A stretch of DNA of 64,000 bases, taken from a virus. The notes under the pieces are model-generated. The model was not told where the DNA came from and ran no database searches. It worked only from the letters and a program-made list of their open reading frames with translations. The stretch covers positions 25,370-89,369 of IMG/VR virus record IMGVR_UViG_3300020201_000015; one strand, 5' to 3'. Made by a program: the position numbers and the translations under genes. Below are positions 6,754-33,156 of this stretch, in pieces (position 1 is the stretch's first letter; each line of letters begins with the position of its first letter).

Positions 6754-6785
6754 GGGTTTTCCTTCGCAGATGCCGTGGTGGCCCA

Positions 6786-6823
6786 GAGCACTGCGCGCCG
6801 GCAGATGCCGGCGCGCAGTGCTC
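6786..6823. repeat. Perfect 17-bp inverted repeat, 4-base loop
   Basis: GAGCACTGCGCGCCGGC pairs perfectly with its complement around an AGAT loop. It lies in the only real gap (6754-6829) of the leftward operon, just after the ParB-like gene. No U-tract follows on the minus strand, so it is not a standard intrinsic terminator. It could be an mRNA processing or stabilising hairpin, or a protein-binding palindrome. Confidence 0.8.
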
Positions 6824-6829
6824 ATGAGG

Positions 6830-7618
6830 TCAGGCCGCGATCGGCTCCTCCGTGAACTTCCCCGGAGGAGGGAGAAGGTTGCGCTTCCGGCGCTCGTTGT
6901 AGATCTCGCGAATAGCAAGGCAGGACGCCAGCCTTGTCTTGCAGTCGAGCTGGGCCATCGCGCACCGGATGCGCGCCATGACTCGGCTAGGCGCGTACGA
7001 CCTCAGCTTGGACGCAAGCTCGGTGCGTGAGACGTCCGGATACTCGGACAGGAAGAACGACACGGCGCGGATGATCTGCTTCTCGAAGCTCGCCGGCTCA
7101 CCGTCGGCCCAATCCTTGATGACCTCCAGCGTCTCGCGCAGGTTGCCGCGGTGGTACACGCAGTCGAGCGCCTGCACAGCACAGATGGCATTCTTTGCCG
7201 ATGTCTTCTGGAACTTGAGAGCCAAGCTGGTCAGGACGACCACGATGGCCACGGCAACAGGCTCTCCAGAGACCAGCCGAGCGCGGAACTTGTCGTAGGC
7301 GCGCACCGCACTGCGGCCGCTGTTGAGGCGGAGAAACATCTCCGCTTCCTCTTGAATGCTCAGGCCGTCGTAGACCTCGCACATGAAGGCGGTGTTGCCG
7401 AGCCCGGCGATGATTGCAGCGCCGAACCTGTGCTGACCGTCCAGCCGCACCATGCGGCCGTCTTCGCGACGAGAGATGACCGGTACGCCGATCAGTGAAA
7501 GGTCAAACGCCTCGGCCATGGCCGCGCTTCTGGGCTCGTCAAACTCTCGCTGATACCGCTCGTCGACCGACGTATCGCAGGGCTTGACCTTGATGAACTG
7601 GGACTTGTTCTTCTTCAT
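6830..7618 (-). CDS. ParB-like nuclease-domain protein (DUF6551 type)
   Basis: The product is 262 residues. Residues 10-90 form a ParB/Srx-like domain with RYQREFD and the signature DGQHR (60-64), then EEAEMFLRLNSGR. The helical C-terminal part has no recognised motif. This form is widespread in phages of actinobacteria and proteobacteria; its role is unproven (DNA-binding or nickase-like activity is assumed). A good Shine-Dalgarno (AGGAGT) lies eight bases before the ATG. Confidence 0.8.
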   Translation of the reverse strand: MKKNKSQFIKVKPCDTSVDERYQREFDEPRSAAMAEAFDLSLIGVPVISRREDGRMVRLDGQHRFGAAIIAGLGNTAFMCEVYDGLSIQEEAEMFLRLNSGRSAVRAYDKFRARLVSGEPVAVAIVVVLTSLALKFQKTSAKNAICAVQALDCVYHRGNLRETLEVIKDWADGEPASFEKQIIRAVSFFLSEYPDVSRTELASKLRSYAPSRVMARIRCAMAQLDCKTRLASCLAIREIYNERRKRNLLPPPGKFTEEPIAA

Positions 7619-9245: not shown

Positions 9246-9970
9246 CACGCCACCCTTCCGCCCTTGAAGAGCTTCAGTTGACCATTGCGCTCGGCGCGCT
9301 TCGCGGCGGCGAGAAGGCGCTCCTCACGGGGCGACAGGAGACTGTGATGGTTGTTCTCGATCGCCTCGAGCGACTCGATCGTCTTGGCCAGCAGGTGCAT
9401 CGACACGGCCCACGGCGTGGACGCAGTGCGAATCTTGCGGACGTAGCCGATGACCTTCGCCTTCGAGTAGCCGCGGGCGTCGCAGACTCGGCGGATCGCC
9501 TGGCGAAGCTCGGCCATTGCGGCAGGGTCGTCGCCTATGCGCGCGGACGAGACGATGGTCTCGTCGAGTTGGGGTCGCTGGGCGCGGACGGCTTCGAGTT
9601 CGCCGCGGCGAAGCGACAGGAACAGCTTGATGAGCGAGACGCGCAAGGCGCTCGCTTGCGCGGTGCGCATCAGTGCCACGAGGTTGTAGGCCTGACCCTC
9701 GTTGAGCATGGGCTCCACGATGATGTCCTCGCGGAACTTGGTGGACCCCGGGATTTCGGTGCGCGATACCGTCTCGCGCACGCTAATCGCGCCGTGCGAC
9801 TCCAGTTCCGCGCGGTTGCGGTCGATGAGCGGCTTGACGTCGCGCGCGCGAAGCATGCCGCCGCGAGTCGCCACCTGGAAGGCGCCAATGCGGCGCTCGC
9901 TGTCGATGGTCTCAACGGTCCAGCCGTCGACCCGAACGATCTCCGCCCCGCCATTGCCGGCGGCGGTCAT
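9245..9970 (-). CDS. Rha/antirepressor-like phage regulatory protein
   Basis: The product is 241 residues. The segment ARDVKPLIDRNRAELESHG, followed by a beta-rich part and then NEGQAYNLVALMRTAQASALRVSLIKLF, has the layout seen in Rha/Bro-type phage regulators, where a recognition helix is followed by an 'all.tLlrt..a...r..lvk.F' helix. The C-terminus is basic and helical. It follows the XRE repressor gene directly (ATGA overlap), fitting a repressor/antirepressor pair. The family assignment is tentative. Confidence 0.5.
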   Translation of the reverse strand: MTAAGNGGAEIVRVDGWTVETIDSERRIGAFQVATRGGMLRARDVKPLIDRNRAELESHGAISVRETVSRTEIPGSTKFREDIIVEPMLNEGQAYNLVALMRTAQASALRVSLIKLFLSLRRGELEAVRAQRPQLDETIVSSARIGDDPAAMAELRQAIRRVCDARGYSKAKVIGYVRKIRTASTPWAVSMHLLAKTIESLEAIENNHHSLLSPREERLLAAAKRAERNGQLKLFKGGRVA

Positions 9971-10278
9971 GCGACCTCGCTGGGATTGGTCCCGGACTTG
10001 GCGACGGCCCATCGTTCCTTTGCCTGCGTGATCGTAGGCTCAGCGAGCGAAGCGACCGCGTCGACGGCCAGGTCCCCGGCGATGTATGAGTCGAGCAGCG
10101 CCGTCGGGATGCCGATGCCCTTCGCGAACCGCAACCGAGCATCGTGCCCGCTCAGGCGGCGCCGCCCCCTTTCAAGGTGCACCACGTCCACCCGCGTGGA
10201 CTGGATCAGCAGTCCCAGCTCCTCCTGTGTGAGCTTCAGCTGCTTGCGCAGCGCCCGGATTCGATCGGCGAGTTCCAT
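9967..10278 (-). CDS. XRE-family helix-turn-helix repressor
   Basis: The product is 103 residues. Residues 4-58 are a classic HTH_3: ADRIRALRKQLKLTQEELG, then a VVHLERGRRRLS recognition part. It is a plausible CI-type repressor of the divergent early promoters. A TTGACA-17-CATCGT promoter ends about nine bases before the ATG, so its mRNA may be leaderless, as for lambda cI. A TTGACACGTGT site overlaps that promoter and recurs at 11051 near the rightward early genes. Confidence 0.8.
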   Translation of the reverse strand: MELADRIRALRKQLKLTQEELGLLIQSTRVDVVHLERGRRRLSGHDARLRFAKGIGIPTALLDSYIAGDLAVDAVASLAEPTITQAKERWAVAKSGTNPSEVA

Positions 10279-11157: not shown

Positions 11158-11231
11158 TTGCACTGGGCACGTACCGGGTGCATACTCCTCTTGCCACCGA
11201 GAGACACGGACCCCCAAAGGACACCGACCCC
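11158..11231 (+). promoter_or_regulatory. Early promoter copy 1 with conserved leader
   Basis: TTGCAC (11158-11163), a 17-base spacer and CATACT (11181-11186) form a sigma70-like promoter preceded by AGTTC. The transcript leader (ACACGGACCC...AAAGGAC...CC before the ATG at 11232) recurs almost unchanged at three other places in the early block (28627, 29777, 32258). AAAGGA acts as the ribosome-binding site. Confidence 0.75.
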
Positions 11232-25179: not shown

Positions 25180-26048
25180 TCCGCGTCGGCTGCGACGCAC
25201 CTTCCAAGCTTACAACGGTTGCGTCGACCATCGCCAGCACGGGCGCACGCAAGGTGGTAGCGATCTCGCCAGCCAGGTTCCGCCTTGAGCTACCCGACTG
25301 CGGGGCCCTGGTCGAGCACATCGAATGGGCCGAGGTCATACAGTACAAGCACTTCTACCGCCTCGTGCAAGAGACCGACTCGTCGACCCTAGTCGTCGTC
25401 AACGAGTGCCTGCGAACGCAGAGCAGGCACGACCTGACGTACAACTGCATCCGTCACTTCCTCAACCAGACGCCGCACCAGGTCATCTTCCAGCGGTTCC
25501 CGATCATCGACTCTCTCGACGATCTCATGACGCTGGTCGACTTCGACACGCGCAGTAGGTGGAAGCGCGAGCCATTCGACCGCGCGATGCTCGCGGACAT
25601 CGACATCGCGGTGGAGCGGCGCGACGTCACGCTAAGTGCCGTGGACGTCGAGACCGACGAGGCTACGCGCGTCGCCTACGGGCGCGAGAAGCGCCGACTG
25701 CTTGACGGCATCGGCCTCAAGGACCCGCACACGATCCCTCGCAACCTGCACCTGATGGCTGGCAAGTCGAAGATGGCAGTGGCCGCCGCCGACCAGCTCT
25801 ACGTCGGCCGCAACGCCCGCCTTGGCATTCGCGGGCTCGAGACATATCGCGACGTCGCCACGACAGAGCCGCGGGACGTCTTCGAGTTCTGTCACAACGT
25901 GATCGACTTCTCTGACTTTCTCGCCGTCACCGGGCAGAGCGTCGTTCGCGCGCTCGTCTCCGATCTTCGAGTTGATCGCTGGTACTTCGACCGCTTCACC
26001 GCTTGGGCACGGAGGGTCAGCGATGCCTACTCAGCGATACTCGGGTGA
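25176..26048 (+). CDS. Unknown protein linked to the PP-loop/ParB cluster
   Basis: The product is 290 residues and I do not recognise it. It begins IRVGCDAPSKLTTVASTIAS and then alternates helices and strands; VVVNECLRTQSRHDLTYNC is a distinctive segment near residue 75. Its position between a methylase and the IbrA-like gene, with 26 bases of overlap at its 3' end, suggests it works with them. It may be a conserved partner, which a neighbourhood search would show. Confidence 0.55.
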   Translation: MIRVGCDAPSKLTTVASTIASTGARKVVAISPARFRLELPDCGALVEHIEWAEVIQYKHFYRLVQETDSSTLVVVNECLRTQSRHDLTYNCIRHFLNQTPHQVIFQRFPIIDSLDDLMTLVDFDTRSRWKREPFDRAMLADIDIAVERRDVTLSAVDVETDEATRVAYGREKRRLLDGIGLKDPHTIPRNLHLMAGKSKMAVAAADQLYVGRNARLGIRGLETYRDVATTEPRDVFEFCHNVIDFSDFLAVTGQSVVRALVSDLRVDRWYFDRFTAWARRVSDAYSAILG

Positions 26049-27150
26049 GACCGTTCTTGAGGCCGCGCGTAGACGCATGGCGTTCGTGTTCGACTCCTTC
26101 CAGGAGATCATCGTTTCGATCAGCGGCGGGAAGGACTCCACCGTCCTCGCTCACCTCGCTCTCGTAGAGGCGCATCGCCGAGGGCGGCGCGTCGGGATGT
26201 TCTTCCTGGACGAGGAGGTCATGTACCAGGAGAGCGTCGAGCAAGTCGACTACCTGATGTCGCTCTACCCGGAGAACACCAAGCGCATGTGGCTCCAGGT
26301 GCCTTTCCGCCTGACCAACGCGACGTCCGTGGAGGCCGGTCAGCTCGACTGCTGGGCGCCGGGCGAACACAAGGTGTGGATGCGCCCGAAGCGGGCCGAC
26401 GCGGTCAAGGCGAAGCCTTGGGACATCGCCACCGAGACCGTAGCGTGCGCGGCTAAGGGATTCGGCTTCTACGACGCCATCGCCAACTTCGAGCGGACCC
26501 ACCACGGAGCCGCGTTTCTCGTTGGGCTGCGCGCGGCTGGCGAGTCGCCCAACCGGTGGCGCGCCGTCGTGAAGAACCCGATCGACGTCGCCGGCAAGTC
26601 GGTCTTCTGGGGCACCAAGAAGCGCGACAATTCCGTTCTCTACCCGGTCTTTGACTGGAACCACCACGACGTGTGGCGGTACATCCACGACGAGAAGATC
26701 CGCTACTCCAAGGTGTACGACTGGCAGTTTCGCAAGGGCTACGCGCTCAACCAGATGCGCGTGTCGTCGCTTATTCACGAGCGCGCCTTCAAGTCGATCT
26801 GCGACTTGCCAGAGTTCGAGCCCAAGACGTTCGAGCGGCTCAGTCGACGGATCAAGGGCATCTCCATGGCCCAAGAGACCGGCAAGAGCGCCAAGATGTT
26901 CGCCTGTCGGAAGCTGCCGAAGAACTTCCGATCGTGGCGAACCTACCGCGACTTTCTGTTTGCTACGCACTCGGACCAGGCGCGGCGGCCCATCTTCGAG
27001 CGGCGCTTCGCGAAGCAGCTCGACAACGAACACGTGGCCCGGCAGCAATGCCGGCAGCTCATCCTGAACGACTACGAGAACAACCTTCCCGTCGACAACA
27101 AGCCAGACCCGCGAGACGAGACGATCCGCTACTACGAGGAGGTCCTGTGA
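26023..27150 (+). CDS. IbrA-like PP-loop (PAPS-reductase family) protein
   Basis: The product is 375 residues. The N-terminal PP-loop SISGGKDST (32-40) is followed by FFLDEEVMYQESVEQVDYL and KVWMRPKRADAV, as in the IbrA/DUF3440 family. The C-terminal half has NWHHHDVWRYIHDEKIRYS, typical of PAPS-reductase-fold proteins. In E. coli, IbrA acts with IbrB as a co-activator of prophage genes. CysH-like proteins of this fold also occur beside type IV-B csf genes. ATG chosen for the GGAGGG ribosome-binding site just upstream. Confidence 0.8.
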   Translation: MPTQRYSGETVLEAARRRMAFVFDSFQEIIVSISGGKDSTVLAHLALVEAHRRGRRVGMFFLDEEVMYQESVEQVDYLMSLYPENTKRMWLQVPFRLTNATSVEAGQLDCWAPGEHKVWMRPKRADAVKAKPWDIATETVACAAKGFGFYDAIANFERTHHGAAFLVGLRAAGESPNRWRAVVKNPIDVAGKSVFWGTKKRDNSVLYPVFDWNHHDVWRYIHDEKIRYSKVYDWQFRKGYALNQMRVSSLIHERAFKSICDLPEFEPKTFERLSRRIKGISMAQETGKSAKMFACRKLPKNFRSWRTYRDFLFATHSDQARRPIFERRFAKQLDNEHVARQQCRQLILNDYENNLPVDNKPDPRDETIRYYEEVL

Positions 27151-27773
27151 CGAAACGACGAGAAGCGTCCGTGCTGAGAATCGACACCGCAGAACAGGGA
27201 CTCGCCGCAGTGGCATCGCGGTCCGTGGAGTACGTCACGGCCGCATCCGGGAAGCGCGTCCCTGTGCCATGCATGTCGACGTGGCTGGTGAGCCCGGCGA
27301 TGGTGGTGGCCAATGGGTACAACCCGAACCACGTACCAGAGGAGAAGATGAAGCTGCTTCGGCAGAGCATCCTCGATAACGGGTTTTGCTTCCCCATCGT
27401 CACGATATGGGACGCCGAGCAGGAAAAGTTCATCATCGTCGACGGCTTCCACCGAAGTCTCGTCGCGAGCGGCGAGTGGCTCGGGCTCGACTACGTGCCG
27501 ATCGTGGTGCTCGACCACGGGCCGCGGCAGCGCATGGCGGCCACGGTGCAATTCAACAAGGCGCGGGGCGTCCACCAGGTGGACCTCGACGCCGAGGTGA
27601 TTCGCGCGCTCATCGAGCAGGGCATGTCCGAAGACGAGATCTCGACCCATCTTGGAATCGATCTGGAGACCATCCATCGGTACAAGCAGGTGACTGGCGT
27701 GGCCGCGCTGTTCGCCAAGGCCGACTACTCGCGAGCATGGGAGATGGTCGACGATGACGTCGTCAGCCCGTGA
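27147..27773 (+). CDS. IbrB-like ParB/Srx-domain protein
   Basis: The product is 208 residues. It shows the IbrB layout: VVANGYNPNHVPEEKMKLL, SILDNGFCFPIVT and the ParB-fold signature VDGFHRS (98-104), then NKARGVHQVDLDAEVIRALIEQGMSEDEISTHLGID with an HTH-like end. It is coupled to the IbrA-like gene by a GTGA overlap. Together they form an IbrA/B-type pair, probably acting on nucleotides or transcription; the biochemical activity is not known. Confidence 0.8.
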   Translation: MTKRREASVLRIDTAEQGLAAVASRSVEYVTAASGKRVPVPCMSTWLVSPAMVVANGYNPNHVPEEKMKLLRQSILDNGFCFPIVTIWDAEQEKFIIVDGFHRSLVASGEWLGLDYVPIVVLDHGPRQRMAATVQFNKARGVHQVDLDAEVIRALIEQGMSEDEISTHLGIDLETIHRYKQVTGVAALFAKADYSRAWEMVDDDVVSP

Positions 27774-28578
27774 GCCGCGACTATCCGCGGACGACGTCCG
27801 GGCGTGGGACATCTGGCGCAGGGCTGCGCTGGTCCACGCTCGGTCGCAGCGACACCTGCGCGCTGTTGACAAGGCTCGGCGCATCGTCGCCGACGGGCTC
27901 GAGAAGGCTCCGCGTGCGGCGCTGATGTGGAGCGGAGGCAAGGACTCCACCGCGATGACGCACTTGGTTTGCGTCGACATGGGCGCCGGCGTCGACGTGA
28001 TCAGCGAGAAGGACGACCTCGACTACCCAGGCGAGGTCGAGTACGTGACGGCGCTTGCGGAAGCCTGGGGCTGCAAGCTTCGTATCGTCACGCCAGGGCA
28101 GTCGCCGGTGGCTTGGATGGATGCGCACGCGCACGAGCTTGACGCTGGCGACGACATCCACTCGCGCGCGGCCGGGCTTAGCAAGGCGTGCTTCTATGCG
28201 CTAGTCGAGGCCGCTACGACGTCGTACGACGGCATCTTGCTAGGGCTCCGGCAGGAGGAGAGCCACGGCCGACGGATGAACGCCGCGACGCACGGGGCGT
28301 GCTACCGGCGCAAGTCTGGGCAGTGGACGATCGCGCCGCTCACCTACTGGAGCGGACTCGACGTGTTCGCGTACCTTCTCTCGCGCGACATCGATCCACT
28401 GCACGTCTACCGATGCATCGCGTTCATGCACGCGCGCGAGCCATGGCGACTGCGCAAGTCGTGGTGGATACCAGGCGCGAGCTCGCGGCACGGAGGGACA
28501 GCCTGGCTCCGCCACTACTACCCGACCCTGTTTCGCCGCCTGCTCCAGTGGATCCCATCTGAGCGGTCGTTTACCTAG
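27754..28578 (+). CDS. Second PP-loop (PAPS-reductase/CysH-like) protein
   Basis: The product is 274 residues with PP-loop SGGKDST (60-66), then VDVISEKDDLDYPGEVEYV, LRIVTPGQSP and LLGLRQEESHGRRMNA, and a late APLTYWSGLDVFAYLL. It is distinct from the IbrA-like protein upstream, since it has no long C-terminal region. Single-domain CysH-like proteins of this kind are associated with type IV-B CRISPR loci. The ATG lies inside the IbrB-like gene (20-base overlap). Confidence 0.75.
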   Translation: MTSSAREPRLSADDVRAWDIWRRAALVHARSQRHLRAVDKARRIVADGLEKAPRAALMWSGGKDSTAMTHLVCVDMGAGVDVISEKDDLDYPGEVEYVTALAEAWGCKLRIVTPGQSPVAWMDAHAHELDAGDDIHSRAAGLSKACFYALVEAATTSYDGILLGLRQEESHGRRMNAATHGACYRRKSGQWTIAPLTYWSGLDVFAYLLSRDIDPLHVYRCIAFMHAREPWRLRKSWWIPGASSRHGGTAWLRHYYPTLFRRLLQWIPSERSFT

Positions 28579-28626: not shown

Positions 28627-28698
28627 TTGCACGGGGTACGTGCCGGGTGCATACTCCTCTTGCCACCGAGACACGGACCCCCCGAAAGGACCCCGACC
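28627..28698 (+). promoter_or_regulatory. Early promoter copy 2 with conserved leader
   Basis: TTGCAC (28627-28632), 17 bases, CATACT (28650-28655), then the conserved leader with GAAAGGACCCCGACC before the ATG at 28699. The spacer differs at a few bases from copies 1 and 4. It starts the small-gene island. Confidence 0.75.
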
Positions 28699-28899
28699 AT
28701 GAAGACCAAGGTAACCATCTCACAACGCGCCGACATCGAGGCCGCTCGCGTCTCGTCGACAGACGCCACGTTTGTGGCCGTGTGCGAGGCCGCGCTAGGC
28801 GGCCCGATGGCGCCCAACCCGATGGGGGCAGGCAAGGTCGGAGCAAAGGGCGCGATCGCGTACCTGCGATCCATTAGGGTGATCGAGGTGGCGTCGTGA
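28699..28899 (+). CDS. Small island gene 1, hypothetical
   Basis: The product is 66 residues, helical, ending in IRVIEVAS. It is the first gene after promoter copy 2. The ending GAGGTGGCGTCGTGA recurs at other junctions of this island. The function is unknown. Confidence 0.6.
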   Translation: MKTKVTISQRADIEAARVSSTDATFVAVCEAALGGPMAPNPMGAGKVGAKGAIAYLRSIRVIEVAS

Positions 28900-29141
28900 G
28901 CGAGTACACTTTTGGTCTACGTGGCGCGACTGAGACGCGCGATCTTTGCCGCCCCAAAAACCGGGCAAAGATCCGCAGGATTGAAACGCTGCACGGCGTC
29001 ACCTGGACGTCGTACGAAGGACCGGAGAAGCGCCTCAGGTCCTGGTTCTCCGGGCCGAACAAGGGGGAGCCGTTCGACCGCTCGCTCGCGGCTGACGTGC
29101 TAGCCAGCATGGTGGCCGCAGGTCTCGACTCCACGACCTGA
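28896..29141 (+). CDS. Small island gene 2, hypothetical
   Basis: The product is 81 residues and basic, with TLHGVTWTSYEGPEKRLRSWF in the middle. The GTG start overlaps gene 1. The function is unknown. The next 90 bases hold a structured element (29152-29213). Confidence 0.55.
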   Translation: MSEYTFGLRGATETRDLCRPKNRAKIRRIETLHGVTWTSYEGPEKRLRSWFSGPNKGEPFDRSLAADVLASMVAAGLDSTT

Positions 29142-29151
29142 GCCTCGACCC

Positions 29152-29213
29152 TCCGTGTCTGCCTGCCTCCACGAGGCTGGCGGACGCGGGCGCTGAGCCC
29201 GACCTGACACGGA
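29152..29213 (+). ncRNA. Intercistronic three-way-junction RNA element, copy 1
   Basis: TCCGTGTC (29152-29159) pairs with GACACGGA (29206-29213). Inside are GCC-T-GCCTC/GAGGC-T-GGC (29161-29181) and CGGGC-GCTGA-GCCCG (29187-29201). The 3' arm flows into AACAAGGACCCCGACCC and the ATG at 29234, the same ribosome-binding leader used behind the promoters. It could control translation, processing or termination. The fold is my reading and needs calculation. Confidence 0.6.
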
Positions 29214-29233
29214 CCTAACAAGGACCCCGACCC

Positions 29234-29758
29234 ATGACCACATCGAAGACCGCCGCCGCCGCCAACACCCTCGCACTCGTGGCGCATGCGCGCCGCGTCG
29301 CCAGTATCGGATCGATGATCCGGATGACGGCTAAGCGCTGCGCCCAGGAGGCTCAGTGGGCGCTCGGCAGGGGCGACATCTACGCCTATCACACGCTGCT
29401 CGATGCGGAGACCGCGATTCGCACTCCCCTGCGCATGGTGTTCTTGCAGCCGAGGCCCGCGCCGATCGCGGCGCCGGTCAAGAAGGCCGCGATGAGCGAT
29501 GCCGCTGCACTCGCGGCTGCCGTGGCGGCCGCCGAGGCGATGCCGGAGGAGCGGGAGCGCGTCGCTGTCGACGCGGCCGCCGAGCCGATGGTCCGCCGGA
29601 TCATCGAGGCGGCGGCGCTGACGAGCGCGGTGTGGTGGCCCGAGAGCGAAGAAGAGGACGGCGCCCGCACGGTGGAGCTCGACCTCATTCAGGCGCGCCG
29701 CCTGACCCACGCACTCGGTGCCGCAGGCGTCTCCTACTCCTACAGCGAGGGCATGTAG
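29234..29758 (+). CDS. Small island gene 3, Ala-rich hypothetical
   Basis: The product is 174 residues, highly Ala/Val-rich and helical, with an acidic WWPESEEEDGARTVE stretch before the end. The function is unknown. The ATG follows structured element copy 1. Confidence 0.55.
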   Translation: MTTSKTAAAANTLALVAHARRVASIGSMIRMTAKRCAQEAQWALGRGDIYAYHTLLDAETAIRTPLRMVFLQPRPAPIAAPVKKAAMSDAAALAAAVAAAEAMPEERERVAVDAAAEPMVRRIIEAAALTSAVWWPESEEEDGARTVELDLIQARRLTHALGAAGVSYSYSEGM

Positions 29759-29776
29759 AAAGATCTGCGATAGTTC

Positions 29777-29845
29777 TTGCACTGGGTACGCGCCCGGTGC
29801 ATACTCCTCTTGCCACCTGACACGGACCACGAAGGACCCCGACCC
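29777..29845 (+). promoter_or_regulatory. Early promoter copy 3 with conserved leader
   Basis: AGTTC-TTGCAC (29777-29782), 17 bases, CATACT (29800-29805), then CCTCTTGCCACCTGACACGGACC and GAAGGACCCCGACCC before the ATG at 29846. The leader lacks a few bases found in copies 1 and 4. Confidence 0.75.
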
Positions 29846-30067
29846 ATGAACGCAATGATCGCACTCGCAAAAATCTCCGACATGCACATCCGGGCGCTGC
29901 ACGCCGACGCGGTGCACGGCAGGGCTGCGACCCTCGCACTGGTGGGGCCCGACTCAGGGCCCGAAGCGGACGTCTGGTACGAAGCCGCTTGCGCCGTAGT
30001 GAAGGTCTACAGCGCGGAAATCTTCCGGCGCCATATCGTCCGCGCGGAAGCCGCGGTGGCGACGTGA
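29846..30067 (+). CDS. Small island gene 4, hypothetical
   Basis: The product is 73 residues, helical; it is the first gene after promoter copy 3. The function is unknown. Confidence 0.55.
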   Translation: MNAMIALAKISDMHIRALHADAVHGRAATLALVGPDSGPEADVWYEAACAVVKVYSAEIFRRHIVRAEAAVAT

Positions 30068-30312
30068 CCGCCGTCGCCACGCACACCGCAGAAGACTGGG
30101 TATCGTCGATCGTCCCGATCTGTTGGGTCAATGGTGAGGCGCACTCGACTCGGCAAGTCGACGCTGGTCGCGAGGTCTACGTGGCGGTCCTTCGTGGTGC
30201 CAGCACGCGACCGTCTTACGCCTTCTCGCGGCGCGACCTGGCCCAAACCATGCTTGGAACTTGGGCCGGCGATGTGCTGAGCGTCACCCTGCGCTCGGAT
30301 GTGGCGGCCTGA
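30064..30312 (+). CDS. Small island gene 5, hypothetical
   Basis: The product is 82 residues with beta-like EVYVAVLRGASTRPSY and a Trp-containing start. The GTG overlaps gene 4. The function is unknown. Its stop begins the GGCCTCGCCTTCCGTG string that opens structured element copy 2. Confidence 0.55.
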   Translation: MTAVATHTAEDWVSSIVPICWVNGEAHSTRQVDAGREVYVAVLRGASTRPSYAFSRRDLAQTMLGTWAGDVLSVTLRSDVAA

Positions 30313-30322
30313 GGCCTCGCCT

Positions 30323-30384
30323 TCCGTGTCTGCCTGCCTCCTCGGAGTCTGGTAGACGCGGGCGCCGAGCCCGACAGACACGGA
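30323..30384 (+). ncRNA. Intercistronic three-way-junction RNA element, copy 2
   Basis: The outer stem is ten perfect pairs here: TCCGTGTCTG (30323-30332) with CAGACACGGA (30375-30384), longer than in copy 1. The middle hairpin uses CTGCC/GGTAG with a G-U pair where copy 1 has CTGCC/GGCGG, a change that keeps pairing. The third hairpin CGGGC-GCCGA-GCCCG is conserved. The leader to ATG 30408 contains AAGGACCACCGACCCC. Confidence 0.65.
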
Positions 30385-30407
30385 CCCAACCAAGGACCAC
30401 CGACCCC

Positions 30408-30629
30408 ATGACCATCTCGACTGCCGCAGCCCTCATCGCCCGATCCATCTCGCACACGGAGATCGCGTCCGCTACCTGGTCGACGGAACTCGCAGCCGCA
30501 CTCGACATCGAGTGCGACGACGGCGTCGACGCCAGCGACACCGTCACGGAGTACTGGGGCGTGACGCTCGACGGCGACGAGTGGCGCGTCCACCTGACCG
30601 GCGCGCGCTCGGTCGAGGTGGCGTCGTGA
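30408..30629 (+). CDS. Small island gene 6, hypothetical
   Basis: The product is 73 residues: Ala-rich start, acidic middle (ALDIECDDGVDASDTV), then YWGVTLDGDEWRVHLTG. It ends in RSVEVAS with the same GAGGTGGCGTCGTGA junction as gene 1. The function is unknown. Confidence 0.55.
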   Translation: MTISTAAALIARSISHTEIASATWSTELAAALDIECDDGVDASDTVTEYWGVTLDGDEWRVHLTGARSVEVAS

Positions 30630-31048
30630 GCGCGGCGCTCGTCGCCTCGGTCGACGCGATCGCGGACAGGCGCGTCGAGGCCCTCACGGCAGCCCTCCAG
30701 CGCCTCGGCTGGAAGTGCCAGCAGGCAGACCTCGACCTCGCCGCGAGGACGGCGAGGATTGCCTTCAAGCACCACACGGGCAGGGTCGTCACCCTGGATG
30801 CTGACGGGCTGGGGCGCGTCTCGCTGACGCGGGAGCAGCACTCGTCGTGCCCCGTGCTGGTGGGTCGCCGTGGCGACCGGCAGAGGGCAGAGCGTCACGT
30901 CGTCGAGTTCATCGGACGCACGCGGCACAGCGGCATCCGCTCCGCCATGCGGAGCCTGGCCGACTACCTGGCCGACAACTCCGGCTGCGACCGTGCCCTG
31001 GCGCGCGCGCCGCTGGCGGGGTTGCTCTCGTCCGAGGTGTCGTCGTGA
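30626..31048 (+). CDS. Small island gene 7, hypothetical
   Basis: The product is 140 residues. The region VEALTAALQRLGWKCQQADLDL and a later HHTGRVVTLDADGLGRVSL suggest a mixed alpha/beta domain. The function is unknown. The GTG overlaps gene 6. Confidence 0.55.
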   Translation: MSAALVASVDAIADRRVEALTAALQRLGWKCQQADLDLAARTARIAFKHHTGRVVTLDADGLGRVSLTREQHSSCPVLVGRRGDRQRAERHVVEFIGRTRHSGIRSAMRSLADYLADNSGCDRALARAPLAGLLSSEVSS

Positions 31049-31329
31049 CCGCCGGCGACCGCATCGAGGTCGACGTCTACTTGCACCTGTGCCCCAGGCA
31101 CGAGGGCGCCGGGTGGTGCCCCGAGTACGATGACTGTCAGAACGCTCCGGGCATCTGGGGCACAGACTACCCCGAGCGGAGCTGCGAGGGCGGCGCTCCC
31201 CACCTCGGGGTGCTTCTCGAGGTCGGAGCGGGCCCGACTGCCGGCCGCGTCCGCATCCAGCTTGACGGCGACGCGCAGCCAGAATGGCGCGACATCGAGC
31301 GCGTCTACCCGGCCCAGGCGGCGTCGTGA
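31045..31329 (+). CDS. Small island gene 8, Cys-containing hypothetical
   Basis: The product is 94 residues with cysteines in LHLCPRHEGAGWCPEYDDC and a beta-rich C-terminal half. Metal binding is possible. The GTG overlaps the previous stop. Confidence 0.55.
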   Translation: MTAGDRIEVDVYLHLCPRHEGAGWCPEYDDCQNAPGIWGTDYPERSCEGGAPHLGVLLEVGAGPTAGRVRIQLDGDAQPEWRDIERVYPAQAAS

Positions 31330-31697
31330 GCGCCGCGGACGACGCGTCGGAGCGCGTGCGCGCCATGATGGCCCAGGGGACGCCGTACGTGTGGACGGTC
31401 GAGGAGGCGCTGGCGCGACACGCCGAGAACTACGGCTACGAGTCGGATTGGCCCCACTGCGAAGTGTACGAGGACCGCGGGCACCTACTCGCGGAGGTGT
31501 ACCGCATCGGCGCCGTGAGCGCCCAGCTGGAGGCGCTGGTCCGAGCTGCGCTGCTCGCGTCGAGGAACCAGGGGGAGACATGGGGGAGCCGCGGCGGCAG
31601 CAGCTACTACAGCACCGAGGAGGACGTCGCGGTGGTGGATGCAGAGGCGAAGGCCGCCGCTGAGAAGGTCATGCGCGCGATCGCGAGCATCTCGTGA
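31326..31697 (+). CDS. Small island gene 9, hypothetical
   Basis: The product is 123 residues, acidic, with a Ser/Tyr/Gly stretch (RGGSSYYSTEEDVAVV) near residue 90. The GTG overlaps the previous stop. The function is unknown. Confidence 0.55.
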   Translation: MSAADDASERVRAMMAQGTPYVWTVEEALARHAENYGYESDWPHCEVYEDRGHLLAEVYRIGAVSAQLEALVRAALLASRNQGETWGSRGGSSYYSTEEDVAVVDAEAKAAAEKVMRAIASIS

Positions 31698-31879
31698 GCG
31701 CCAAGAAGTGCGGCGCGTTCTACGCCGACGCCGACGACGTGAGCGGGCCGTGCGCCCGAGCGTCTGGACACGACGGCAATCACGAGGACCTCCGCGGCGA
31801 CGCCTGGGCGCAGGAGCGGACCGCGACGGCTCCGCCTGCCGTCAGCCCTGCCGAGGCGAAGGGCCGGTGCAAGTCATGA
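31694..31879 (+). CDS. Small island gene 10, hypothetical
   Basis: The product is 61 residues, starting SAKKCGAFYADADDVSGPCARASGHDGNH, a C/H pattern that could hold a metal. The GTG overlaps the previous stop. Confidence 0.5.
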   Translation: MSAKKCGAFYADADDVSGPCARASGHDGNHEDLRGDAWAQERTATAPPAVSPAEAKGRCKS

Positions 31880-32061
31880 GCGGCGAGCGCGAGCAGCACT
31901 CGGCGGACTGGCAGCGCTTCATCTCTCGCCGCGAGAGCATGGTCGCAGCCGAGCAGTGGGAGGTGTGGAGCGACGGCATGCTTCAGGACAGCTGGCGCAC
32001 GCGGTATCTCGCCCGCCTGCACATGCACTGGATCAAGCTAGCAGCGGGGGTGGCGTCGTGA
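31876..32061 (+). CDS. Small island gene 11, hypothetical
   Basis: The product is 61 residues, Trp/Arg-rich with helix-like WQRFISRRESMVAAEQWEVW. The ATG overlaps the preceding stop. The function is unknown. Confidence 0.5.
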   Translation: MSGEREQHSADWQRFISRRESMVAAEQWEVWSDGMLQDSWRTRYLARLHMHWIKLAAGVAS

Positions 32062-32247
32062 GCGGCAAGGTCGCAGACGACACGTCGCAGCGCTCGCGTT
32101 CGCGCGGGTCGTACCGCTACACGCTCACCACCGACGTGGTCGAGTGGGTACGCGCAGAGGCGGCGCGCCGCCAGGTGTCGGCAAGCGAGGTGGTACAGGA
32201 TGCGCTTGCGGAGGCGCGAGATCGGCTTATTCGAGGGGGGGGGGTAA
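32058..32247 (+). CDS. Ribbon-helix-helix-like regulator ending at a poly-G tract
   Basis: The product has about 62 residues: RSRGSYRYTLTTDVVEWVRAEA and RRQVSASEVVQDALAEARDRL fit a CopG/Arc-like fold. The frame reaches a run of ten G (32235-32244). With nine G the next codon is TAA (32245-32247) and the protein ends just before promoter copy 4. With ten G, as sequenced, the frame reads through the promoter into the next gene and ends at 32654. The end given here assumes the nine-G form. Either a sequencing slip or true phase variation is possible. Confidence 0.5.
32235..32244 (+). repeat. Ten-base G homopolymer deciding a reading frame
   Basis: The ten G residues lie at the very end of the ribbon-helix-helix gene, ten or so bases before promoter copy 4. 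The tract length switches between a stop and a fused product. Confidence 0.85.
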
Positions 32248-32257
32248 CAAACAGTTC

Positions 32258-32336
32258 TTGCATGGGGCACGTACCGGGTGCATACTCCTCTTGCCACCGA
32301 GAGACACGGACCCGGACCCCAAAGGACCCCGACCTC
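32258..32336 (+). promoter_or_regulatory. Early promoter copy 4 with conserved leader
   Basis: AGTTC-TTGCAT (32258-32263), 17 bases, CATACT (32281-32286), and a leader nearly identical to copy 1 but with a short CCGGACCCC insertion, then AAAGGACCCCGACCTC before ATG 32337. Confidence 0.75.
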
Positions 32337-32654
32337 ATGAAGACGACGACGACCCACACGATCACCGAGCTTGGCGACTACGGCGCCCGCGTGCACCGCG
32401 GTACGTTCGAGGTCTTCTGCGCCGCCGGCACCAGGCGCGCGGGTGGGGAGTGGGCGATCGTGTCCCGAGACGGGGAGACCAATACGGAGCCGACGGCGTC
32501 CGTCACGGACGGGCCGAAGGGGCCCATCCCCGGGCCCGTGCTCGCTTCTATCCGCGCGGCTCTCGTAGACCTTCCGCGCTCTGAGCATGAGGAGCGAGAG
32601 CGGATGCGACCACTGGTCATCGAAGCCATGTGGAAGCGCCGCGCGGCAGCCTGA
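32337..32654 (+). CDS. Small island gene 13, hypothetical
   Basis: The product is 105 residues: a Thr-rich start, then a beta-rich domain (GARVHRGTFEVFCAAGTRRAGGEWAIV) and a basic helix. The ATG behind the conserved leader is favoured over fusion to the upstream frame. The function is unknown. Confidence 0.55.
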   Translation: MKTTTTHTITELGDYGARVHRGTFEVFCAAGTRRAGGEWAIVSRDGETNTEPTASVTDGPKGPIPGPVLASIRAALVDLPRSEHEERERMRPLVIEAMWKRRAAA

Positions 32655-32664
32655 GGCCTCGCCT

Positions 32665-32715
32665 TCCGTGTCCGCCCGCCTCATCGGAGGCTGGTAGACG
32701 CGGGCGCTGAGCCCG
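32665..32715 (+). ncRNA. Intercistronic RNA element, copy 3 (outer stem degraded)
   Basis: The opening TCCGTGTC (32665-32672), the hairpin GCCTC-ATCG-GAGGC (32678-32691) and CGGGC-GCTGA-GCCCG (32701-32715) are kept. The matching GACACGGA arm is missing, so only two hairpins would form. AAGAAGGACTGACCCCC leads to the ATG at 32740. Confidence 0.5.
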
Positions 32716-32739
32716 ACCCCCGAAGAAGGACTGACCCCC

Positions 32740-33156
32740 ATGAAGACCGCGACTGCCGCCATCTCGAGCCCAGACCCCGCCACGGAGACCGTGGACCTGC
32801 GAGCTGAGGCGGTGCCGATTGCCACCCTCGTGCACGGCGACGAGCACGCACAGGTCCAGCGCGGCTACGTCTACCGGTGCAGCGCGGAGAGCGCTGATGC
32901 GAGCGAAGGCGTCGGGTATTTCGGGGACGATTCCCCCCCGTGCGCGGCAGAGTACCTGTGCTGCGCAGACGCGAGCGAGGGCACCTACCTGGTGATCTCG
33001 ACCGAGGCATCTGCCGATGACATCCACGTCGTGGACGGTTGGAATCTCGAACCGGCCGAAGATCTCGAGGTCGGCGAGGTCTTCGACGACGGGGTCTGGG
33101 TCGTCGTCGTCGTCAAGGCCCGGGGCCACCTCTGCACCGTCGCGGGGTCGCTGTGA
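32740..33156 (+). CDS. Small island gene 14, hypothetical acidic protein
   Basis: The product is 138 residues, acidic, with several Cys (CSAES, PPCAAEYLCCAD) and a Val-rich strand (DDGVWVVVVVKARG) near the end. The function is unknown. Confidence 0.55.
   Translation: MKTATAAISSPDPATETVDLRAEAVPIATLVHGDEHAQVQRGYVYRCSAESADASEGVGYFGDDSPPCAAEYLCCADASEGTYLVISTEASADDIHVVDGWNLEPAEDLEVGEVFDDGVWVVVVVKARGHLCTVAGSL

Follow-up and report, generated by a model that had tools for sequence, protein, structure and literature searches.

Three copies of one sequence lie between small genes in the rightward early region of an uncultured phage, and they raise the question of what RNA they would form and what such an RNA would do at these gene boundaries. 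The DNA analysed, called the window, comprises 64,000 nucleotides (bases 25370-89369 of the 89,369-base IMG/VR virus record IMGVR_UViG_3300020201_000015), and positions below count from its first base unless the record is named. About 100 bp are repeated at both ends of the record (bases 1-120 and 89250-89369 of the record), and a sister contig, L061, crosses the junction of these ends; the genome therefore looks complete, and the count of three elements holds genome-wide. The first 18 bases of the record repeat nearby sequence in inverted orientation, which is probably an assembly fold-back. The phage encodes a contractile tail sheath, and its cultured relatives are distant, with less than 30% identity for capsid and sheath in the best of the listed records.

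Repeated elements and operon layout

The three elements (E1, E2, and E3, Table 1) were located at the positions given in an earlier sequence-only reading and proved to be genuine repeats: copies 2 and 3 were 92% identical over 73 nt, copy 1 matched copies 2 and 3 with E values of 2.8e-26 and 5e-15 respectively, and each copy carried 3-4 substitutions relative to the consensus of the copies. The elements had been taken to start at TCCGTGTC; the homology extended further upstream, across the stop codon that ends the gene before it (TGA-GGCCTCGCC), with this flank pairing with the 3' side. The stop codon and 5' flank thus belong to the repeat. The order of proximal gene, stop codon, element, leader, and next gene was constant in all three cases, the elements were confined to the rightward early region, and their orientation always followed transcription. 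The earlier description had each copy end in the same ribosome-binding leader, which was not the case for copy 3, where the AAGGA Shine-Dalgarno sequence was kept and GACACGGACC was absent.

Three operons contain the elements, with the layouts P1-a-b-E1-c, P2-d-e-E2-f (and further genes), and P3-m-E3-n. Their promoters belong to a set of four near-identical copies, P0-P3 (TTGCAC, 17 nt, CATACT), followed by the same leader, GACACGGACC...AAGGAC...ATG. The arrangement AAGGAC..CGAC..ATG was present in six leaders, and GACACGGACC occurred in six copies. The spacer of P0-P3 holds a partial dyad (TGCAC..GGYACGYRCC..GTGCA); both promoters and dyad were read by eye, and a stricter consensus scan listed none. 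The dyads are likely operators for one repressor, and P0-P3 may plausibly be under the control of the HTH protein encoded near P0. No recognisable promoter was found in E1-E3, and the distal gene has none of its own.

No homology was found between the cassette genes, and searches with part of them (gene b included) gave no PHROGs match and no Pfam match above the cut-offs. Since the flanking genes were mutually unrelated, it is the boundary that is conserved and not the gene. A third repeated junction, GAGGTGGCGTCGTGAGCG, at which a gene-ending TGA overlaps the next GTG start, occurred in six plus-strand copies in the cassette region, and initiation at these overlapping GTGA junctions is expected to be coupled. 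Gene l contains ten consecutive G close to its end (32235-32244), a run that leaves it in frame through P3 and on into gene m. Directly after the run a TAA stop is present in another frame, and a length error or a variable G-run is likely.

Table 1. Positions of the repeated elements, promoters, leaders, and genes in the window
Feature	Position	Strand	Remarks
HTH repressor-like gene	9967-10278	-	leftward, near P0
P0	11158-11231	+	promoter copy (11158-11186) and leader; about 0.9 kb from HTH repressor-like gene
P1	28627-28698	+	promoter TTGCAC-17-CATACT (28627-28655) and gene a leader GACACGGACC..AAAGGACCCCGACC
Genes a, b	28699-28899, 28896-29141	+	between P1 and E1
E1	29142-29202	+	predicted long imperfect hairpin from stop codon TGA (29139-29141) of gene b; takes in the stems earlier placed at 29152-29213, closing arm excepted
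Gene c leader	29206-29233	+	GACACGGACC..AAGGACCCCGACCC, behind E1
Gene c	29234-29758	+	174 aa, behind E1
P2	29777-29845	+	promoter copy (29777-29805) and gene d leader
Genes d, e	29846-30067, 30064-30312	+	between P2 and E2
E2	30313-30372	+	same predicted hairpin behind stop codon (30310-30312) of gene e
Gene f leader	30377-30407	+	GACACGGACC..AAGGACCACCGACCCC, behind E2
Gene f	30408-30629	+	73 aa, behind E2; then genes g-l via overlapping junctions
P3	32258-32336	+	promoter copy (32258-32286) and gene m leader
Gene m	32337-32654	+	between P3 and E3
E3	32655-32714	+	same predicted hairpin behind stop codon (32652-32654) of gene m; three-way junction impossible
Gene n shortened leader	32715-32739	+	behind E3; AAGGA at 32726-32730 kept, GACACGGACC lost
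Gene n	32740-33156	+	behind E3
GAGGTGGCGTCGTGAGCG overlaps	28885-28902, 30053-30070, 30615-30632, 31034-31051, 31315-31332, 32047-32064	+	

Predicted fold of the elements

The sequence-only reading had proposed that the elements can fold into a three-way junction made of an outer stem, TCCGTGTC/GACACGGA, a bulged middle hairpin, and a CGGGC/GCCCG hairpin. The two inner hairpins were found in all three copies; the outer stem occurred in the first two only, copy 3 having been correctly described as missing the closing arm. Folding the earlier coordinates alone gave the junction in copies 1 and 2 only. When the leader and next start were included, the probability of the closing stem was 0.09-0.11 for E1 and 0.45-0.84 for E2. 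The junction could therefore not be kept as the shared fold, being impossible in one copy and rare in another, whereas a long hairpin fits all three.

That hairpin was obtained for all copies once the conserved 5' flank was included. It is single and imperfect, with a 60-nt span, 23-24 predicted pairs, mostly 1x1 mismatches, a loop of 3-4 nt, and in-register arms of about 28 nt, and it runs from the stop codon to GAGCCC. The predicted energies of the 62 nt behind the stop codon were nearly equal at -34.2 (E1), -33.5 (E2), and -35.0 (E3) kcal/mol, with z-scores of -4.25, -3.27, and -2.86 respectively, and none of 500 shuffles of E1 reached its minimum. These energies were among the lowest 0.45-0.59% of 2,881 62-nt genome windows, and E2 and E3 ranked within the six best in-register hairpins on the plus strand of the 89-kb genome. 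The long hairpin would be fully transcribed before the GACACGGA arm exists. Adding 3' context lowered the probability of its lowest stem; once downstream sequence is present, this stem faces competition from a two-hairpin form (GTGTC/GACGC and the CGGGC hairpin).

The substitutions were compared with the predicted pairs. Of 11 variable columns in the 56-column core, 2 were paired (hypergeometric P 0.002, an optimistic value, as the structure was derived from the same sequences). For the whole hairpin, random placement of the same substitutions broke equally few pairs in 7% of trials (P 0.07). In a hand alignment 69 of 71 cells were paired, with three pairs varying one-sidedly via G.U and two G.U pairs invariant; pair-keeping of this G.U type suits RNA better than DNA symmetry. 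An automatic alignment to the hairpin gave one two-sided cell, located where copy 1 is misaligned, and counts not above those of shuffles. We found that the single long hairpin, as modelled, fits the three copies at least as well as the three-way junction, and it is most likely their common fold. The boundaries and fold of the earlier description are corrected accordingly, and the revised ones can serve any future search for the element.

A regulatory RNA closed by TCCGTGTC/GACACGGA, possibly switching with the hairpin form, would account for several observations and was nonetheless judged very unlikely. CCGTGTC is able to pair with GACGCGG or GACACGG, the 8-nt complement TCCGTGTC seldom arises by chance (in 5 of 20,000 dinucleotide shuffles for E1 and in 60 for E2), and the closing stem reaches its higher probability in E2. 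However, this stem cannot form in E3 and has a low probability in E1, and no pair of the model was changed on both sides among the three copies. The base changes earlier cited as keeping pairs do exist, but all were one-sided (GC/GU and UA/UG), and two junction pairs varied on one side. Moreover, the 3' arm, GACACGGA, is an ordinary translation-leader motif that also stands behind the four repeated promoters, where it has no partner to pair with. The extension of the stem to ten pairs in copy 2 lost its meaning in the same way: the AG before ACACGG belongs to leader variant AGACACGG, which is also found behind P0, P1, and P3 with no pairing partner. As E1 carries the leader variant of P2, and E2 that of P0, P1, and P3, the 3' arm of the junction follows the leader and not the stem. 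In the fold, the probability that the arm of the element pairs over long range with the transcript's own 5' leader was 0. A more elaborate version, a translation-sensing RNA switch, is a slim prospect: the ribosome finishing the upstream gene would cover the 5' strand of the lower stem, the long hairpin would refold into the two-hairpin or three-way form in which GACACGGA is paired, and distal initiation would be tied to proximal translation.

What stood of the original proposal was an intercistronic structured RNA tied to small-gene cassettes, which is supported by the low folding energy of all three copies, the changes mostly outside paired columns, and the constant place between stop codon and leader.

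Search for relatives and comparable systems

Both folds were turned into covariance models and searched for in 36 virus records, the analysed one among them; only E1-E3 were matched. The 35 other records had been reached via PAPS-reductase-like, capsid, and sheath proteins, and many of them are fragments that may not include the region, so that absence there is weak evidence. Model hits on the minus strand at the same places reflected hairpin symmetry only. Rfam gave no match in the window at gathering or relaxed thresholds beyond weak chance hits, a tRNA/tmRNA search found none, and a DNA search of phage and plasmid collections gave no match. Exact-pattern scans of viral contigs with the promoter, the 5' half, and the 3' half gave chance hits only: one contig (L008) had the promoter string and no surrounding cassette, 50 further contigs were without the second half of the pattern, and another (L113) was without the other half. 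The pattern scan of genome contigs found none, gene n as bait found no relative, and the capsid protein found none in genome contigs. The region is missing from the sister contig L061, which is 98-99% identical. No homologue was found in the sequences searched, and the long hairpin is a predicted fold. Two PAPS-reductase-like proteins (25972-27150 and 27754-28578), with an ORF between their genes that is ParB-like by eye, directly precede the small-gene cassettes, and in three other phages (L087, L090, and L091) DNA similarity extends beyond the first of these genes.

Lambdoid phages have conserved short boundary sequences between exchangeable genes, and E1-E3 resemble them in being conserved and short and in lying between genes; there the setting is gene exchange, whereas for E1-E3 no relative holding the region was found. 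According to Dunn and Studier, the early RNase III sites of T7 reportedly lie between genes. One of these, R1.1, is a 60-nt RNase III substrate (PMC4858673), and E1-E3 are likewise hairpins of about 60 nt between early genes. Phage RNase III sites are intercistronic hairpins of about two helical turns, a size that the predicted pairs and span of E1-E3 match. There is no sequence relation to the T7 sites, and the E copies differ in repeating one another and in being fused to a repeated leader. Short repeats dispersed among the non-structural genes are also known from the Cluster A stoperators and the Cluster O and EG intergenic dyads (PMC4351075, PMC7302621); these are DNA motifs of 13-18 bp, in contrast to a 60-nt hairpin whose position is tied to stop and start codons.

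Of the phenomena described, the SAS/ESAS system of actinobacteriophages comes nearest: a conserved ribosome-binding leader stands at the starts of unrelated non-structural genes, and in a subset of them an inverted repeat lies immediately upstream (PMC3203893, PMC7302621). Here, too, a repeated leader was found within a few nucleotides of the start codons of several unrelated genes. The ESAS of Adephagia takes the form of a sigma-70-like promoter with an inverted repeat inside it (PMC11373665), and is closer to P0-P3 than to E1-E3. The EF consensus, GGGAAAGGACCCC, has AAAGGACCCC in common with two leaders here (P1 and P3); beyond this core, neither the EF form nor the 13-bp Cluster K consensus, GGGATAGGAGCCC, was present. 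The phage is also of another type, with its contractile tail sheath and distant head proteins, and had no DNA match in the phage collection. E1-E3 differ further in beginning at a stop codon, in having no recognisable promoter, and in folding well as RNA, whereas Pope et al. found little support for RNA hairpins in ESAS. By these features, E1-E3 would be a promoterless RNA-hairpin variant of an SAS/ESAS-type arrangement and are not members by sequence.

Proposed role and alternatives

We tentatively propose, with a probability of about 0.35, that E1-E3 are a cassette-boundary module in putatively repressor-controlled early operons, serving as an RNA processing or insulation signal before a start-associated leader. 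The module would consist of the stop codon, the 60-nt imperfect hairpin, and the translation leader of the next gene, placed promoter-distally in operons with repeated sigma-70-type promoters. The hairpin would fold while the RNA emerges, keep the leader of the following gene apart from the translated gene before it, and act as a double-stranded processing signal of the RNase III type or as a stable block. The distal gene would thereby gain its own message end and its own initiation, as opposed to coupled initiation at the overlapping GTGA junctions. Probably the hairpin helps to express or cut the message gene by gene; RNase III may be involved, as size and place suggest.

The same hairpins could instead be attenuators or 3'-end structures, which would partially stop transcription or protect the upstream message and so set the ratio of proximal to distal product. 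Their start right at the stop codon in all three copies, the want of a recognisable promoter for the distal gene, and the existence of further strong intergenic hairpins without U-tracts in this genome are in keeping with this idea. An intrinsic terminator, however, combines a G+C-rich hairpin with a U-tract, and E1-E3 do not: no T-run follows any copy, the terminator scan of the region found no terminator-like site, and the element is joined to the following gene's leader. We consider this role unlikely. A similarly small chance falls to remnants of recent segment duplication with no function of their own, as suggested by there being no more than three copies, all inside 3.6 kb of a single genome, by the partial loss of the E3 leader, and by the lack of homologues found. 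Against duplication, folding energy stayed near-constant despite the substitutions in each copy, these fell mostly outside paired columns, and the flanking genes are not duplicates. An element acting as DNA, either an operator dyad or a boundary for recombination and shuffling of small-gene cassettes, appeared distinctly unlikely. It would fit unrelated genes being separated by three kinds of repeated junction (P, E, and GAGGTGGCGTCGTGAGCG overlaps) and leaders seemingly shuffled between P and E junctions, but the G.U-type changes preserve the symmetry of RNA and not of DNA, the orientation never departs from that of transcription, and no related genome showing an exchanged cassette was found.

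If the boundary-module reading is true, an uncultured phage builds its small-gene operons from three interchangeable junctions (promoter, hairpin, and overlap), and E1-E3 would parallel, at the level of RNA, the unexplained repeats that stand at gene starts in actinobacteriophages. Elsewhere in the window, a near-perfect intergenic hairpin of at least 17 pairs with no T-run lies at 6776-6837, and no other 62-nt window of the genome is as stable (-50.9 kcal/mol).
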